The position numbers were made by a program, and so were the translations under genes. The notes under the pieces are model-generated. The model was not told the DNA's origin and did no database searches. It saw only the letters and a program-made list of their open reading frames with translations. Below are positions 12,298 to 20,508 of a stretch of DNA of 64,000 nt, one piece after another (the first letter of the stretch is position 1; each line of letters opens with the position of its first letter). Origin of the DNA: Tissierellia bacterium (GTDB lineage: Bacteria; Bacillota; Clostridia; Tissierellales; Tissierellaceae); the NCBI GenBank assembly GCA_012518035.1, contig JAAYTL010000118.1:1-64000 (forward strand). Direction: 5' to 3'.

Positions 12298-14025
12298 TCA
12301 ATTAGTCAGTCCTTCGAACTGCGAATTATAAAGTTGAGAATATAATCCATCTTGTGATAATAATTCCTGGTGCTTGCCCCTTTCTACTATTCCTTCATTT
12401 GTCAATACCAAGATCTCATCTGCATTCTTCACAGTTGATAATCTATGGGCTATGATTAGGGAGGTCCTACCCCTAGATAAGTCATTTAGCGATTCTTGTA
12501 CTAGAGCTTCTGTTTCATTGTCTAAGGCTGATGTAGCTTCATCCAATATTAAGATAGCAGGGTTCTTAAGAAATATCCTAGCAATTGAAATCCTTTGTTT
12601 TTGTCCTCCAGACAACATTACACCTTTTTCCCCTATATAGGTGTCATAACCGTTGGGTAAGGTCATGATAAAATCATGAATTCTGGCCTTCTTTGCTGCT
12701 TCTGTCACTTCTTCTTCACTGGCTGATGGCTTCCCATAGAGGATGTTGTCCTTAATAGTTCCCGTAAACAAGAATACATCTTGTTGGACTAGCCCTATAT
12801 TAGCCCTCAAGGATTTAAGTCTAATGTCCCTAATATCGGTACCATCAATCATAATCCTACCATCATCAATTTCATAAAACCTTGGAATCAAATGACATAG
12901 TGTAGACTTGCCAGCTCCAGATGGACCAACTATGGCCACTGTCTTGCCTTTTTCTATGGTTAAATTGATATTGGATAGCACCCTTTCCTCTCCATTTTTA
13001 TAGCTAAAGGAAACATTTTCAAATTGAATCTCACCCTGAGGCTCCACTAATTCTGCCGCATCCTCTTTATCAACTATATCAGGCTCTATGTTCATTATCT
13101 CCAAGAATCTTTCAAATCCCGTAGCTCCATCTTGAAGTTGCTGAGTTATGTTAGTAAGCCTTTTAATAGGTTGCATAAAGAAGTTAACATACAAGGTATA
13201 TGCAAACAAGTCACCTATATCTATAATCTTGACATATACAAAATATCCACCCAAGGATATAACTATCAGATTCAGTACATTGGAAATAATCCCAACTCCA
13301 GAAATAAACTCTGCCATAACCTTATATGCCTGTTTTCTAGCCCTTGAAAAGGCATGATTCCCCTCATTAAATCTTTCTATTTCATAATCCTAATTGGTAA
13401 AGGACTTGGCAATCCTAATTCCTGAAATGCTATTTTCTAGACGGGCGTTTACATCTGCTATTTTAGACCTTACCTCCCTAAAGGATTTTTCCATCTTCCT
13501 CCTTTTTTTAATAGCAAAAAGGATCATCAATGGTATAAAGGCAAATATTATGAGGGTCAACCTCCACTCTATACCCAACAAGATAATGAATGACCCCAAT
13601 AGCATAACTAAAGAGATAAATACATCTTCAGGTCCATGATGGGCAAGTTCAGTTATATCCCTTAAGTCGTTGATAATTCTAGACATGATGTGACCTGTTT
13701 TATTATTGTCATAATAGCTAAAGGGCAGGGTTTGTAAATGAGTGAATATATCCCTTCTCATATCTTGCTCGATTTTTACTCCTAATACATGTCCCCAATA
13801 GGCCACAATATACTCACTAATGTACCTCAAGATGAATAAAAAGAGCATAATTATTGACCATCTTAATAGCAAGTCCATCCTACCATCAGGAATTATTACA
13901 TTAATCATCTTCCTGGAAAAAATAGGGAAAACAAGGTCGAACAAGGACACTAAAAAAGCAAAGAACATATCTATAAAGAATAACTTTCTATGAGGTTTGT
14001 AATAGGAAATAAATTCTTTCAGCAA
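12298..14025 (-). pseudogene. ABC exporter (MsbA/BmrA type), interrupted by one in-frame TAG
   Basis: Half-transporter with an N-terminal six-helix membrane domain and a C-terminal ATPase with Walker A GPSGAGKST, signature LSGGQKQR and Walker B ILILDEATSAL. A single TAG at 13392-13390 splits it after AKSFTN. The codons on the far side continue in the same frame (DYEIERFNEGNHAFSRAR) into the rest of the exporter, so no frameshift is involved. With the stop read through, the protein would be a normal-length exporter of about 575 residues. A TTG at 14025 with AAAGGGG upstream is the likely start; 14106 is the furthest in-frame start. The TAG may be a real nonsense mutation or a sequencing error. 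A separate internal start for the second half would give a non-functional protein. Confidence 0.85.
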
Positions 14026-14131
14026 CTCTTCAACCCCTTTGGATAGACAGAATATGTTTCGATACTCGAATATATTATACCTCAGCCCTATGGCTTTTTC
14101 AATCAAGAGAGTATATGTTTAGCCATTCCCA

Positions 14132-17100
14132 TCACCTAGATTCAGGCTGGCAAAATGCTTGATATATGCAGTACTTGTCGCAATCCACTGCTGGTTCATA
14201 TGAGGCTAAATCCTTATGTTGTTCAACATAATCAATGAAGTCTCTAATTCTATTGAAGTTCTCTTCAAGTTTGTCTTTAGATATATCCACCTCGGCCACA
14301 TCTCCATTTTCTAGGAATACTATCTTAGATTTAGCCACGCTTTGACCCAATATCTTCTCTACTGCATAGGCATAGAGCTGTAATTGAGGTTCGTATAGTT
14401 CAATTAATTTATTCTTATTCCATAATCTATTGGTTTTAAAGTCTACTATCTCTATGTTTCCTTCTTTGATGGTTATCCTATCGATAATACCCTTAATATA
14501 CTTATCTCCAACTGCTAGATAAAAGGGCCTTTCAGTATATATTTCATCATAGTCCTCCCTATGAATCTTCATATAGTTATCTACATAGGGCCTAATTTCT
14601 TCTTCTAAGCCCTGATTATATTCGATACCATAGGAGTTGACTATTTCTAGTAGAAGATTATCAACATCCATTCCATCCCTATATTTATGGCAAAATTCAT
14701 GTACTATATTCCCTTTTTCATGACCCTTGAGGATTTTCGTCTCCTCTTTCAAGTCAAAATCATAGTCAATATCCTCTATTTCATCACTTTCTTGCATCAT
14801 GCCCAGCTTCAATCCCCAATAATGCTCCAGATAAAAGAGTCTTCTACATATTTTAAATTTCTGATATTGACTGATATTGAACGAGATAAATTCTTTTGAA
14901 TTATAGCCACCTAGGTCATAAAGAAGGGGTAGGGATGTAGATTTAACATCACTAACTGTTAAATTATCACCTAGTGTCTTTACCGGAATGTAGGCTTCCT
15001 TCTCCATATCTATATCAGATAGAATCCTATACTTGTCAGATGGTAGATAATCCTTAATCATCTTTTTAAACCCAGAATTCTTCCCGAAACATCCCAGTAT
15101 TAGCATTTCTTCAGCCCTGGTCATGGCTACATAGAGGATTCTAGAAAGTTCCTCATCTTCACTTTCCTGCTTATCCTTCTTAATTAATTGAAATAATCCT
15201 TCACTTTCCTTGGATTTTATGCCAATCCCAAGTTCCTTAGCATAGAGGATATTGGATGAGCTATGTTTGTGAGACTTGGCCATCTCAGGTATTATGACTA
15301 GCGGAAATTGAAGTCCCTTTGATCCGTGTATAGTTAATAACTTTACGGCATCATCTTCTTCAGATTGGATTATTCCTTCACTCTCACTTGATTCCTTTAG
15401 TCTCTCCAGATAATCTATATAGTCCTCTAATGATTTATTGTGTTCTGCCTGAAAATCATTAGTCATCTCAATAAACTTGTAGATATTGGCGACTATTTGG
15501 TCACCTTCGGCCTTCAGTAAGGAGCTTTCTATAAAATAGGTTTTATCTACTAGGAGACTCACAACTTCTGATAGGCTATAAAAGCTCTTAGCCTTGTAAA
15601 AATATCCCAATAAGGCTGCAGCCTCCTTCAACTTAACCCTTTCCGATTCATTAAAGATTGGATTATCCTTTATCTTTAATATGGTCTTGTATATATTGTC
15701 TTCCAAATATTTAAGCGTCCAATAAATACTTGTATCCTTCAAGCCTACCATGGGACTTCTTAAGAATCCTATGGTCGCTATCTTATCATAGGGATTACTA
15801 ATGGCCTTAAGACCATTTAATAAGTCCAAAATCTCCTGCCTATAGAAGAATCTTTTGCTGCTTGAATTAAAATAGGGTATATTATAATCTTTTAGTGCTT
15901 CTTCATATATGTAGTTTCTAGTACTTGCCCTAAATAGTATGGCTATGTCCTTGTATTTAAACCTTCCCTCTTTCACCAGGGACTTGATCCTTTTGGCTAT
16001 TAAATCAGCCTCATAATAACTAATTTCATCAGCATTACCTTGGATATCCTCTTTCTCAAGGACCTCGATATCAATTTCATTATTAGACTTCTTGAAGGGA
16101 ACTAATTCATCGTACTTGTCTTCCATAATTGGAGAAAATACGGCATTTACAAAGTCCAAGATTGTGTCTAGGCTCCTATAGTTGGTCTTTAGGGTGATAA
16201 CCTTGTCCTGGTTCTTGCTCTGGATATCATTCATGACATCATAAAAGACATCAATGTCAGCACCTCTAAACCCATAAATGGACTGTTTAGGATCACCTAC
16301 AATAAATAGGTTCTGCCTATCCAATGGCTTTTCCTTTGTAGCTAATTTATAGAAGATTTTTTTCTGTAATTCGTTGGTATCTTGAAACTCATCAATCATA
16401 AAATATCTATACTTTTCTTGGTATTTCCTAAGTATTTCTGGATTTTCCAGGAGATTTAGAACCTTGATTTGCAAATCATCATAGTCCAGACCTCCTAGTT
16501 CAGCCTTTCTTAATCTATACTCCCTATCAATTTCAATTAAGATATCTGTCAAGGATTCATAAATCCACAAATATTCCTTTTCCTTATACAAGAGTAGGCA
16601 ATCTATTAGATAATGGACCCTGTCTACTTCCTCCTGTGCACTTTTATTGTTACCTAAATGTTCCTTAATAAATTCGATATAGGTAAAGATATCCTCCTTA
16701 AAATCCTTATTCTTAAAATCCAACCATAAGTCATCATCTCTAATTCTGAGTATCTTGGCATTGGACCTTGATTTACTCATAATATACTCAATAAGGCCTA
16801 TTATTTCTTGAATGTATTCTTCCTTAAATTCAAGGGAGCTGATATAGGTCAAGGTCTCTTCTTTAACCTCTTCAAATGATACACCTATTGTACGAATCTC
16901 GTTATAAAGAGAATAGATATCCCCTTTTAAATCCTCTATTTTATTCTTGTTTAATAGTTTCATCATAGGCAAGGTGTCTTTTTTGTCATCCAACCAATTC
17001 CCTAATACCTTTTGGATAGATTCATTAAGTAACTGACAGCTTAAAACATCATCTAGTACCTCAAAATATGGATCAATATTTGCCTCGATGGGGTTTTCTC

Positions 17101-17425
17101 TAAGAAGCCCTGCACAAAAACCATGGATGGTGGATATATTTGCCCTGTCTAAATCCCTATAAAACCTTCTCCACCTATCTCCCTTAGGGATGTTTTGACT
17201 TATCCCATCACGAATTCTCTCAATCATCTCCTGGGTAGCCTTATTAGTGAAGGTTATGGCAACAATGGATTCAATCTCCTTGTTTTCTTTCAAATCTCCT
17301 TTTTCTAGTATATATAGAAACCTATCTGTTAATACCTTGGTCTTACCAGTCCCAGCACCAGCATTTACTGCTAAATTACTATCTATGGTCTCAACAGCCT
17401 TTAATTGCTCCGGATTTAATTGCAT
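14132..17425 (-). CDS. addA: AddA helicase-nuclease subunit, with a C-terminal four-cysteine signature
   Basis: Superfamily 1 helicase and nuclease subunit that processes double-strand breaks. Helicase motifs are visible: NAGAGTGKT (Walker A), DEFQDTNELQ (motif II), VGDPKQSIYGFRGAD (III), TIHGSKGLQFP (V) and VAMTRAEE (VI). The C-terminal RecB-type nuclease has VHEFCHKY, IKGIIDRI and IEIVDFKTNR. Unusually, the nuclease is framed by cysteines at about 859 (FKICRRLFYL) and at 1082, 1086 and 1092 (CDKYCIYQAFC), the arrangement of an Fe-S nuclease normally described for AddB. Its ATG overlaps the addB stop (TAATG). Confidence 0.93.
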   Translation of the reverse strand: MQLNPEQLKAVETIDSNLAVNAGAGTGKTKVLTDRFLYILEKGDLKENKEIESIVAITFTNKATQEMIERIRDGISQNIPKGDRWRRFYRDLDRANISTIHGFCAGLLRENPIEANIDPYFEVLDDVLSCQLLNESIQKVLGNWLDDKKDTLPMMKLLNKNKIEDLKGDIYSLYNEIRTIGVSFEEVKEETLTYISSLEFKEEYIQEIIGLIEYIMSKSRSNAKILRIRDDDLWLDFKNKDFKEDIFTYIEFIKEHLGNNKSAQEEVDRVHYLIDCLLLYKEKEYLWIYESLTDILIEIDREYRLRKAELGGLDYDDLQIKVLNLLENPEILRKYQEKYRYFMIDEFQDTNELQKKIFYKLATKEKPLDRQNLFIVGDPKQSIYGFRGADIDVFYDVMNDIQSKNQDKVITLKTNYRSLDTILDFVNAVFSPIMEDKYDELVPFKKSNNEIDIEVLEKEDIQGNADEISYYEADLIAKRIKSLVKEGRFKYKDIAILFRASTRNYIYEEALKDYNIPYFNSSSKRFFYRQEILDLLNGLKAISNPYDKIATIGFLRSPMVGLKDTSIYWTLKYLEDNIYKTILKIKDNPIFNESERVKLKEAAALLGYFYKAKSFYSLSEVVSLLVDKTYFIESSLLKAEGDQIVANIYKFIEMTNDFQAEHNKSLEDYIDYLERLKESSESEGIIQSEEDDAVKLLTIHGSKGLQFPLVIIPEMAKSHKHSSSNILYAKELGIGIKSKESEGLFQLIKKDKQESEDEELSRILYVAMTRAEEMLILGCFGKNSGFKKMIKDYLPSDKYRILSDIDMEKEAYIPVKTLGDNLTVSDVKSTSLPLLYDLGGYNSKEFISFNISQYQKFKICRRLFYLEHYWGLKLGMMQESDEIEDIDYDFDLKEETKILKGHEKGNIVHEFCHKYRDGMDVDNLLLEIVNSYGIEYNQGLEEEIRPYVDNYMKIHREDYDEIYTERPFYLAVGDKYIKGIIDRITIKEGNIEIVDFKTNRLWNKNKLIELYEPQLQLYAYAVEKILGQSVAKSKIVFLENGDVAEVDISKDKLEENFNRIRDFIDYVEQHKDLASYEPAVDCDKYCIYQAFCQPESR

Positions 17426-20400
17426 TATTCCACCTCCAAAACGTCTCTATATCTACAAATATCCTTGTAGATACAGTAGGGTGAGCATTCTTGGGGCTCC
17501 ACACGAAAATCCCCTTTTTCAATATTGGATAAAATATTATAGATATTTTCCTTTGTAATCAGCATAAGCCTGTCCCACTCTTCTTGGGTTAATATGCTCT
17601 TTCCTCTACCCCTAATAAATGGTTTTAGTCCTAGTTTAATCTCTGTTTTGGCATTATTAATTATGCTATAAGCCCCTGCAACCATATCCCTACCTTCTTG
17701 GGATAAGATGTAAACTGGTAATTGTAAAGAAAGGCCTGATTCCATGTCTTCAATACTCTTGACACCACCAGAAGAACTTTTGTAGTCAATGGCAATATAC
17801 TTGTCTTCCTTGTCTAGCTTGTCTATTCTATCGATTTGCCCAATTATAGGGATTGATCTATCCCTGACATTCAAAATAAATGACTCATACTTCCCAAATT
17901 CCTTTTCAAACTCATAGGGAATGTAGCCATCCTTTATTATCCTATCTACATCCTTCTCAATAAAGTCTCTTAATTTATCAATTGCAACTTCTATAACCAA
18001 GAGGTCCTTTTTATTGTCTAGATTCAAACCTATTTCAGGAGCTGTGTTAACTAGTATTTCTTTCAAGTTTGATATGGTATCTTGAAAATCAAAGTCTGAA
18101 CCTCCTACAACTGAATTTTCGATTTCTTTAGAATAGGTTTCATAATATTTTCTTAAGACTTCATGGTATAAGTTCCCGAGATTTCTCGGACTGTAATCTT
18201 CAAATTCCCTCTCCATCTGCTCTACCTTAAATATATTATTTAGCAAAAAGAAGTATGGACATCTACTATAGGCTTCAAGATAGGATATACTATAAGCCTT
18301 GGGAAGCATTGATTTAATGTCCTTGATGATGGTTTCATCATCAAGGACTCCTCGATATTCATCATATTCGTTTCCATAACGATTTACTTCAGAAAGGACT
18401 TTTTCATTTATCTTCTCCAGGACCTCAAGTAATGCTTCATTGTATAGGTTGAGAATAGAGGAATCTAGGCTATCTCCCATAAAATAAGAGCTAATTATAT
18501 ATCTAAGCAAATCCCTAAAATTGGTAATATCTTCCGCCCTTTTCTTTACCAAATAATCTAAGTTTACCTTAGTCTCTTTTAAGGTATACTTCTCATCCTT
18601 ATCCTTCTTAATCAAGGAAATCACTTCTTCTAAAAACAAGGATTTTATTATGCTATCATCGTAGCCACTACTATAACTTAAGTAGAGTTTCTTTTTACAT
18701 GAGGCTATTATAGATGCAAACTTTAATCCCTCATTATCTAGCCTTTCCCCATAGCTTTTAACATCTATACCTATGGATTTTAAGTCCTTGTAATTATAAT
18801 CATTGATGAAGTAATTCCTATCATCTAAGGCTGGATAACTCCCCTGGGCAAGGCCAGTTATAAAAATTATTTCCTTGATTGTCCCCCTACTATTAATAGG
18901 ATCTAAAATATGTAATCCATTGATATTTCCTTCTAACTCTATAACAGCCTCCTCCTCAATATGATCCACAAGGAGGAAGTAATAATCATCGATGGTAATC
19001 TCATCTTTAAATCCTATTAGTAAATCCATTTTCTCAATAACTTCTTCTATCTTATCTATAGTTCGAAAATCCCTCAAGAAGAGATCTTCATCTTCTTCAT
19101 CCCTATATTGTTCTACAATTCTCTCCCTTATCTTAAAATCATCAATCAGTGAAAGGATTGTCTGGTTAAAGATTGATATTTTAGACTTACTAGGTATCCG
19201 ATTTGCTTCATGCTTAATTATATCAATGATAGAATTAAGGGATTCTATCTCTTCCATAGGTATTTTTAAATCCTTGTTTGATTCTAGCAGGTCCTCCAAA
19301 TCCTTTATGTCAGAAAAATCTTCCCTTCTTAGGAATAACTCGTAAAGGTCCCTCTTATCTTCTGGGCATACCTCAAAATAACTAGACTTAATCCTGTTTA
19401 TCAATAATGATTTGGGATAGGAATTTAGCTTATTCTCCATTATGGTTAGGAGTTCCCTAGCTATGGGCAAGTTTTTTAAGGGACTGGTCTTGTTTATGCT
19501 AAGGGGAATCCTTTCCATAGCTGAAACCTTGTACAAGGGTTCTAGGTAGTCCGAATTTGATATGATTATCCCAATATCTCCAAGGTCGATGCCAGAGTGA
19601 TGATGCTTCTTTACCTCTTCAAAAATCTTTCTTAGTTCAAGATAGGGAGTAGCCCCATTAATTATAGAAATCTCATCTTCGACTTTTAATACATCTACCT
19701 CATCGACAAATAGATATTTTCCAAGTTTCTCAAAGACGTTTGATGGTTCATCATATATGTACTCTATTTGGAAACCTAGCTTACTTAAAACCTCCAAAGT
19801 TTTATCTATTACTATAGATTTATTATCAGTTAAATAAGGCATATTGATAATAATGTCCATACCTGTCTTAGTTAACTGTTCTAATATGGCTAACTCAATG
19901 GGTCTGAAGTCATAAAATTCATCAATAATCATTGTTTTAACATGACTAAATATTTCCTTTTGTTCCAATAACCTAGCTGACTTAAGATAGGCACCTTCCC
20001 TATCTGTAACATGTAAATTTTCTAAGATTCTTTCATATTCAGCATAAATAAGTCCTATCTCTTCATAGAATGGATTCTTCGGACACCTTGCCAAATATTC
20101 ATCTGGATAAACCAAGGACCGCTTGATATCCCCTAGGATATCATTCATTGATTTAACAAAACCCTGCATATCATAATGGTTCTTATAGTAGGTTAGCATT
20201 CCTTCATCGGTTAAGCTTTTGATAAGATTTCTTAAGATTAAGTTCTTAGTTGGATTGTCTATAATGTGGGTGAAATCACCCTCTAAGACCCTAGAGACTA
20301 TATCGTCAAAAGTAAACAGGTTTATTTCAAATGCCTGTCCTACTTGTCCAATAAAACAGCTTCTATATTCTCTCAAAAGCTCACCATTTGGCAGGATGTA

Positions 20401-20508
20401 GTAGAACTCATTCCCACGATTATTCTTCAAATCTGTAATTGCTCGGTTAATTAAATCTCCTTTTTTGTAATTATTAAAACTACCTATATACACAATCCTT
20501 TTCGCCAT
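17425..20508 (-). CDS. addB: AddB-like nuclease subunit (RexB-like, no Walker A)
   Basis: Partner of AddA in the RecBCD-like end-processing complex that recognises Chi. The C-terminal PD-(D/E)xK nuclease shows LGNLYHEVLRKY, IIGQIDRIDK and YIAIDYKSSSG. The Fe-S cysteines are present: SRCPYFFLLN (about 749) and CSPYCIYKDIC (1008, 1012, 1018). The N-terminus reads YIGSFNNYKKGDLI where Bacillus AddB has a Walker A loop, so ATP binding by this subunit is unlikely, as in RexB. TAGGTGATGAA precedes the ATG. The gene follows the ROK kinase by 8 bases. Confidence 0.88.
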   Translation of the reverse strand: MAKRIVYIGSFNNYKKGDLINRAITDLKNNRGNEFYYILPNGELLREYRSCFIGQVGQAFEINLFTFDDIVSRVLEGDFTHIIDNPTKNLILRNLIKSLTDEGMLTYYKNHYDMQGFVKSMNDILGDIKRSLVYPDEYLARCPKNPFYEEIGLIYAEYERILENLHVTDREGAYLKSARLLEQKEIFSHVKTMIIDEFYDFRPIELAILEQLTKTGMDIIINMPYLTDNKSIVIDKTLEVLSKLGFQIEYIYDEPSNVFEKLGKYLFVDEVDVLKVEDEISIINGATPYLELRKIFEEVKKHHHSGIDLGDIGIIISNSDYLEPLYKVSAMERIPLSINKTSPLKNLPIARELLTIMENKLNSYPKSLLINRIKSSYFEVCPEDKRDLYELFLRREDFSDIKDLEDLLESNKDLKIPMEEIESLNSIIDIIKHEANRIPSKSKISIFNQTILSLIDDFKIRERIVEQYRDEEDEDLFLRDFRTIDKIEEVIEKMDLLIGFKDEITIDDYYFLLVDHIEEEAVIELEGNINGLHILDPINSRGTIKEIIFITGLAQGSYPALDDRNYFINDYNYKDLKSIGIDVKSYGERLDNEGLKFASIIASCKKKLYLSYSSGYDDSIIKSLFLEEVISLIKKDKDEKYTLKETKVNLDYLVKKRAEDITNFRDLLRYIISSYFMGDSLDSSILNLYNEALLEVLEKINEKVLSEVNRYGNEYDEYRGVLDDETIIKDIKSMLPKAYSISYLEAYSRCPYFFLLNNIFKVEQMEREFEDYSPRNLGNLYHEVLRKYYETYSKEIENSVVGGSDFDFQDTISNLKEILVNTAPEIGLNLDNKKDLLVIEVAIDKLRDFIEKDVDRIIKDGYIPYEFEKEFGKYESFILNVRDRSIPIIGQIDRIDKLDKEDKYIAIDYKSSSGGVKSIEDMESGLSLQLPVYILSQEGRDMVAGAYSIINNAKTEIKLGLKPFIRGRGKSILTQEEWDRLMLITKENIYNILSNIEKGDFRVEPQECSPYCIYKDICRYRDVLEVE

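Follow-up and report, generated by a model that had tools for sequence, protein, structure and literature searches.

With a probability that we put at roughly four in five, both nuclease domains of the AddAB-type gene pair described here carry a four-cysteine staple holding one cluster each, most likely [4Fe-4S], and this dual state is the likely older one, from which the staple of AddA would have been lost several times. The pair lies in a stretch of 64,000 nucleotides from a Tissierellia bacterium, hereafter the window, and is encoded on the minus strand in the order addB, addA, where the stop codon of addB overlaps the start codon of addA by one base (TAATG; Table 1). AddA unites the Pfam domains UvrD-helicase, UvrD_C and PDDEXK_1 in one protein, and AddB has ADDB_N and PDDEXK_1 together with a UvrD-helicase match of 33.5 bits (cut-off 23) that sets in only at profile position 73; by eye, no Walker A motif was seen in the first 40 residues of AddB. 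The catalytic residues are present in both nucleases, namely His909, Glu965, Asp982, Asp995 and Lys997 in AddA, and His782, Asp893, Asp908 and Lys910 in AddB. In the broad sense this is an AddAB-type arrangement, with an AddA-like motor-nuclease adjoining an AddB-like helicase-like nuclease. Since the genome (1.93 Mb in 131 contigs, 99.72% complete) has three PDDEXK_1 matches, which are AddA, AddB and one frame of 170 amino acids, and six UvrD-helicase matches, two of which are addA and addB, the pair is the only one of AddAB type found in it. Its nearest named relatives belong to Tissierella and other Tissierellia, and we know of no Chi site for this bacterium. Downstream of addA, an ABC transporter (14106..12298, minus strand) is split by one in-frame TAG (stop 13392-13390) into two open frames; both parts are in the same frame, as would result from a sequencing error or from decay.

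Table 1. Features of the addB-addA pair in the window, with the cysteines of the two predicted staples
Feature	Position	Strand	Description	Basis
addB-like gene	17425..20508	minus	1027 aa; helicase-like N-terminal part and C-terminal PD-(D/E)XK nuclease	Pfam ADDB_N (N-terminal part)
addA-like gene	14132..17425	minus	1097 aa; UvrD-type helicase (motor) and C-terminal PD-(D/E)XK nuclease	ORF and Pfam
AddB nuclease domain	17452..18294	minus		Pfam PDDEXK_1
AddA nuclease domain	14147..14881	minus	residues 849-1093	Pfam PDDEXK_1
AddB Cys750 codon	18259..18261	minus	first cysteine of AddB staple	aligned with residue 801 of B. subtilis AddB
AddB triplet Cys1008, Cys1012, Cys1018	17455..17487	minus	C-terminal cysteines of AddB staple	last two align with B. 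subtilis AddB 1124 and 1130
AddA Cys860 codon	14846..14848	minus	first cysteine of predicted AddA staple, on N-terminal side of nuclease core	shares alignment column with AddB Cys750
AddA Cys1082 codon	14180..14182	minus	second cysteine of predicted AddA staple	count and alignments
AddA Cys1086 codon	14168..14170	minus	third cysteine of predicted AddA staple	count and alignments
AddA Cys1092 codon	14150..14152	minus	fourth cysteine of predicted AddA staple	count and alignments

Counted in the translated reading frames, the cysteines of AddA stand at residues 104, 130, 276, 779, 860, 912, 1082, 1086 and 1092, and those of AddB at 51, 142, 381, 604, 750, 1008, 1012 and 1018. An earlier note on this DNA had claimed a cysteine near 859 and three at 1082/1086/1092 in AddA, and likewise one near 749 and three at 1008/1012/1018 in AddB with the same spacing; all of them are there, the exact first positions being 860 and 750, and the C-terminal triplet reads C-x3-C-x5-C in both proteins. 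The AddA domain has therefore the layout of an iron staple, C...C-x2/3-C-x5-C, with one cysteine before the core and three after it. Moreover, the conservation among close AddA relatives which the same note had proposed to check is found, both in an alignment of 24 C-terminal domains and in a larger set of 170 AddA proteins. In the 24 AddA domains, all from the same order (the window and 23 relatives that are 27-55% identical to it), Cys860, Cys1086 and Cys1092 are as invariant as the five catalytic residues, and the first triplet cysteine shifts by one place, giving C-x3-C or C-x2-C. Chance cysteines without function would hardly keep three invariant places, and a fourth shifted by at most one, down to 27% identity, nor would they be present all together or not at all in 164 of 170 AddA, where 2000 column shuffles, a null that ignores relatedness, gave 34.5 on average and never more than 49; we consider such an explanation practically negligible, and the alignments confirm that the cysteine finding is real and exceeds chance.

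The AddB domains provide the reference for the cysteines of AddA. Among 23 AddB domains three of the staple cysteines, the first and the last two, never vary, and the remaining one is kept in at least 90%. A profile-profile comparison of the AddA and AddB nuclease sets aligns the cysteines with a probability of 98.9, and when 110 nuclease domains (55 AddA and 55 AddB) are aligned together, the four cysteine pairs of the window share columns, so that the likeness drawn in the earlier note is borne out and the AddA cysteines are the counterparts of the AddB staple. In turn, three cysteines of the AddB profile align with Cys801, Cys1124 and Cys1130 in the solved structure of B. subtilis AddB (3u44 chain B), and the first triplet cysteine falls one place from Cys1121, the spacing there being C-x2-C. 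These four residues of B. subtilis AddB, 801, 1121, 1124 and 1130, we take to be its [4Fe-4S] ligands; the original paper on this cluster is reportedly that of Yeeles in 2009. As for B. subtilis AddA, the AddA profile matches its solved structure up to residue 1229 of 1232, where the core ends, with no staple segment behind it, in line with the previous statement that the Bacillus complex has its cluster in AddB only. A metal-binding staple in the nuclease domain of the window AddA is thus well supported at the level of sequence. A further cysteine of AddA, Cys912, lies three residues past the catalytic histidine; in 51% of the AddA rows a cysteine stands at the corresponding place.

The predicted fold is consistent with this reading. 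The model of AddA residues 780-1097 (318 residues) has a mean pLDDT of 78.7 with most of the core above 90, and the block means at the three C-terminal cysteines are 63 and 54; in a control model of the window AddB nuclease the confidence also dips at the cysteine hairpin, to 75 and 61. The Foldseek hit with the best E-value is the core of B. subtilis AddA, and a second comparison restricted to the Foldseek hits gives Z values of 16.9 for mycobacterial AdnA, the best structural match, 15.6 for ACE1 of the Cas4 family, 15.3 for EXO5, 15.2 for B. subtilis AddB, 14.0 for Cas4 and 12.7 for Dna2. All these matches extend to model residue 316-318 of 318, and those of the RecB chains, with Z between 10.2 and 12.5, reach no further than 283, before the cysteine segment. 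Such a superposition on staple nucleases speaks against the objection raised in the earlier note, that the four cysteines might lie too far apart to bind one cluster. RecE, which to our knowledge has no cluster, also matches up to 318 (Z 13.6), so the C-terminal match is supportive of a staple rather than a proof of it. Cas4, Dna2 and EXO5 have the same fold as the AddA domain, and two reports describe the four-cysteine layout for them and for Bad (PMC3466216, PMC7430649); they differ from AddA in being single-domain proteins or in standing in another helicase context, not in the motor subunit of an AddAB-type heterodimer.

As to the metal, the four AddA cysteines could bind zinc, with AddB alone being an iron protein. 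In fact zinc occupies the same four-cysteine site in a related nuclease of Eubacterium rectale (DUF3799, PDB 3L0A), where the authors themselves allow that it may be artefactual (PMC3466216), and our AddA model also matches 3l0a with a Z of 13.9. However, Cas4, Dna2, Bad and AddB, which share the cysteine layout, are described as iron-sulfur proteins (PMC3466216, PMC7430649, PMC4176176), and the spacing C-x2-C-x5-C or C-x3-C-x5-C is found in 99 of the 110 AddA that have four cysteines. Zinc is regarded as unlikely, and the metal of the AddA staple is most likely iron-sulfur in the form of [4Fe-4S].

It should also be asked whether the protein is an AddA at all. UvrD-Cas4 fusions, in which a UvrD-type helicase is joined to a Cas4-like nuclease, have the same domain order as the window AddA, and they are described as a monophyletic helicase group that is often found in Type III restriction-modification or Dcm contexts and is linked with defence systems (PMC5704561). 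Two family models would allow for such an assignment: the Cas4 model TIGR00372 matches with 40 bits (cut-off 65), and the best NCBIfam match, TIGR02785 addA_Gpos, reaches 359.3 bits, about half of its curated cut-off of 707.65, for which reason the window protein should not be filed under that equivalog. But addA shares its first base with the end of an AddB-like gene; in the stretches fetched, some of them truncated at contig ends, 149 of 170 AddA could be paired with an AddB-like neighbour; the genome has no second PDDEXK_1 pair; and no restriction-modification gene was seen by eye among the neighbouring open reading frames. The fusions, on the other hand, stand alone or near restriction-modification or methylase genes, and in section 8 of that study AddB is not named as their partner (PMC5704561). 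We therefore hold a UvrD-Cas4 fusion to be very unlikely, and the window protein most likely works like an AddA. Low scores against TIGR02785 are in fact seen in other dual-type AddA, with 360-422 bits for L225, L229 and L256 and 367 bits for L146 from Acidobacteriota, whereas the cysteine-free classic AddA of L088, L092, L101 and L292 score 1090-1344 bits; a cysteine-free Halalkalibacter AddA is below the cut-off too (361 bits). As all five dual-type AddA that were scored fall below the cut-off, such genes are probably under-named in the databases.

The distribution of the staples was followed in 170 AddA and 149 AddA-AddB pairs, drawn from the order of the window, from its phylum and from named relatives. 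In the order sample, 98 of 150 genomes matched the AddA C-terminal query and loci were taken from 80 of these; in the phylum sample, 342 of 398 genomes matched the profile and 74 loci were hand-picked among the matches listed, with close kin left out, one of which (L251) gave no AddA; 16 of 80 named loci and the window itself complete the set. Of the 170 AddA, 110 have four cysteines, 54 have lost or lack them all and six have one to three. These six partial rows, all kept in the set, comprise two that end early (L066, L247), one with a shortened hairpin (L141), two whose cysteines seem stray (L170, L052) and L290. The four-cysteine form accounts for 46 of the 80 AddA of the order and 51 of the 74 phylum loci; since the loci outside the order were chosen by similarity to the four-cysteine AddA profile, the frequencies are given as lower bounds, that is, at least 46 of 150 genomes in the order and at least 51 of 398 in the phylum. 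It occurs under 38 of 62 sampled family labels, where group codes and NCBI names are mixed and the sample leans to such forms, so the view of the earlier note that a dual staple would be unusual is not supported.

Among the 149 pairs, 90 have both sets, 46 have that of AddB only, and four have neither; one has a single AddA cysteine and none in AddB, in five, one subunit has a partial set and the other is complete or cysteine-free, and three have four cysteines in AddA with fewer than four read in AddB. In the last three, the AddB of L162 has three cysteines and a serine in the last place, and those of L263 and L286 contain runs of unknown letters, so that among the 149 pairs none was found with the AddA set present and the AddB set plainly gone. 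The AddB cysteines are kept in 95-96% of the 149 rows when read in aligned columns. Pairs with a staple in AddA only, which came out of a regular expression applied to the last 70 to 120 residues, were rejected as an artefact, for many AddB have longer tails or other spacings. Oxygen-free life, another cause suggested previously for the dual form, fits poorly with its occurrence in Pyrinomonadaceae and other Acidobacteriota (L145, L146, L150, L163 and L165), a phylum that is mostly aerobic. In one genus, g6, two species differ, the dual form being present in L042 and the AddB-only form in L087, and this mixture suggests that the gene pair was replaced by transfer.

The history of the two staples can be approached from trees of the helicase part and of the nuclease domains. 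Had duplication, gene conversion or a domain swap recently passed the staple from AddB to AddA, the same spacing in both window proteins would be readily explained. However, in nuclease-domain trees built without the cysteine columns, AddA and AddB are split by a single branch, with a support of 100 for 110 rows and of 96 for the outgroup tree of 70 rows (55 AddA and 15 AddB), and in both trees the domains of the window each group with their own kind, although many long branches are flagged in every tree. A recent origin from AddB is therefore extremely unlikely, and the gene duplication proposed at first is given up in its recent form; the nuclease domains of the two proteins may still share an ancient ancestor.

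The reading that we prefer, an old dual state with repeated loss from AddA, agrees with the helicase-part tree, which was computed with FastTree for 147 AddA with the last 330 residues left out, three or more cysteines being scored as the four-cysteine state. Of its rows, 96 are four-cysteine, 50 are cysteine-free and one is undecided, and the four-cysteine rows are scattered across the tree; the fewest state changes are eight, of which well-supported branches force at least four. When AddB is used as the outgroup of the nuclease domains, the cysteine-free AddA of B. subtilis type lie inside a group with four-cysteine lines (supports 84-87), and the other cysteine-free lines (L111; L051 and L052; L170, L236 and L248) join at the unresolved base. 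Because staples are present in AddB, Cas4 and Dna2 alike, parsimony would favour a loss from AddA over a gain. Dual-staple AddAB is thus widespread and probably older, and AddA of B. subtilis type has probably lost its staple.

Loss seems to have gone further in family f4, which belongs to the order of the window. Here both sets are found in L048; in L047 the AddB set is complete, and AddA keeps the segment before the hairpin without cysteines; L052 has one stray AddA cysteine and no staple set in either subunit; and L050, L051, L097 and L112 have staple cysteines in neither subunit. With L097 set aside, as its AddA is a classic one of another line, we read this series as a graded loss.

A comparison with the known two-subunit systems helps to place the window complex. 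It resembles B. subtilis AddAB (PDB 3u44, 4ceh) in the motor and nuclease of AddA, in the helicase-like part and nuclease of AddB and in the matching AddB staple cysteines, but the B. subtilis AddA ends after the nuclease core without a staple segment, and the window AddA is 135 residues shorter than it. Mycobacterial AdnAB (PDB 6ppj, 7sjr, 9np6) is similar in that each of its two subunits has a RecB-like nuclease (PMC13309787). Unlike the window AddA, however, the motor subunit AdnB has an aspartate at the place of the first staple cysteine (7sjr, 6ppr, 6ppu chain B), and the idea that the solved AdnAB is already a dual-staple complex was dropped, as mycobacterial AdnB is without the first cysteine. 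AdnA carries an iron-sulfur cluster. On an actinobacterial contig (L309, 772-1713; L303), an AdnA-like frame with the cysteine triplet was observed beside an AdnB-like fragment with the first staple cysteine, the contig ending inside the AdnB-like gene before the other three cysteine places. AdnAB may thus have dual-staple members as well; in a second actinobacterial pair, L311, a pattern search found the triplet in neither protein, which argues against a general dual-staple rule in that phylum.

How the dual-staple complex would work can be proposed from the B. subtilis enzyme, in which the AddA motor unwinds the DNA and the 3' strand runs via the AddB scanner to the AddA nuclease, AddB cutting the 5' strand (PMC4824097, PMC4027173). 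By homology, the AddA of the window would act as the motor and unwind a broken DNA end; of the separated strands, the 3' one would travel past the AddB scanner to the AddA nuclease, the 5' one would be cleaved by the nuclease of AddB, and both strand-cutting domains would be stapled. In each of them, one cysteine before the core and three after it would hold one cluster and fasten the two domain ends to each other. AddAB needs its cluster to bind DNA ends and to keep its structure intact (PMC4176176, PMC7430649). The AddA cluster may likewise stabilise its domain and aid in holding DNA, and the AddA staple would do for the 3'-strand nuclease what that of AddB does for the 5'-strand one, by linking the C-terminal hairpin with the stretch that precedes the core. 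During evolution the AddA staple would have been lost repeatedly, one such loss being that in the AddA lineage of B. subtilis type, and one family of the window's order would have lost the AddB staple too. Nuclease-dead variants of B. subtilis AddA and AddB support repair at a nick as well as the wild type (PMC12748557), and this speaks against a general need for cutting. As for the supply of clusters, the genome of the window has an IscU/NifU-type scaffold, which makes a supply route likely; a SufB/SufD match was not found in it, and was present in 14 of 14 control genomes.

Taken as a whole, the staple is now placed on the AddA nuclease of many species as well, and for a staple in AddA no report was found in the open-access titles and beginnings of abstracts among the matches listed. 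The explanations offered at first, duplication and oxygen-free life, are replaced by a broader one, namely that dual staples are widespread and probably old. Going beyond this, we lean slightly towards the view that AddAB as known from textbooks, with its single cluster, is a reduced version, that the ancestral AddAB, and perhaps also the ancestor shared with AdnAB, was stapled on the nuclease of each strand, and that the order of loss was fixed, AddA losing its staple first and AddB following later in one family of the window's order. If so, the dual form would still be common in the phylum of the window and in Acidobacteriota, and about 8 Fe would be needed per heterodimer. In a well-studied machine with a known fold and a known cofactor site, the staples form a clean and testable series, and these natural complexes with two, one and no staples would offer a direct test of whether the cluster serves the stability of the fold, the binding of DNA ends or sensing.
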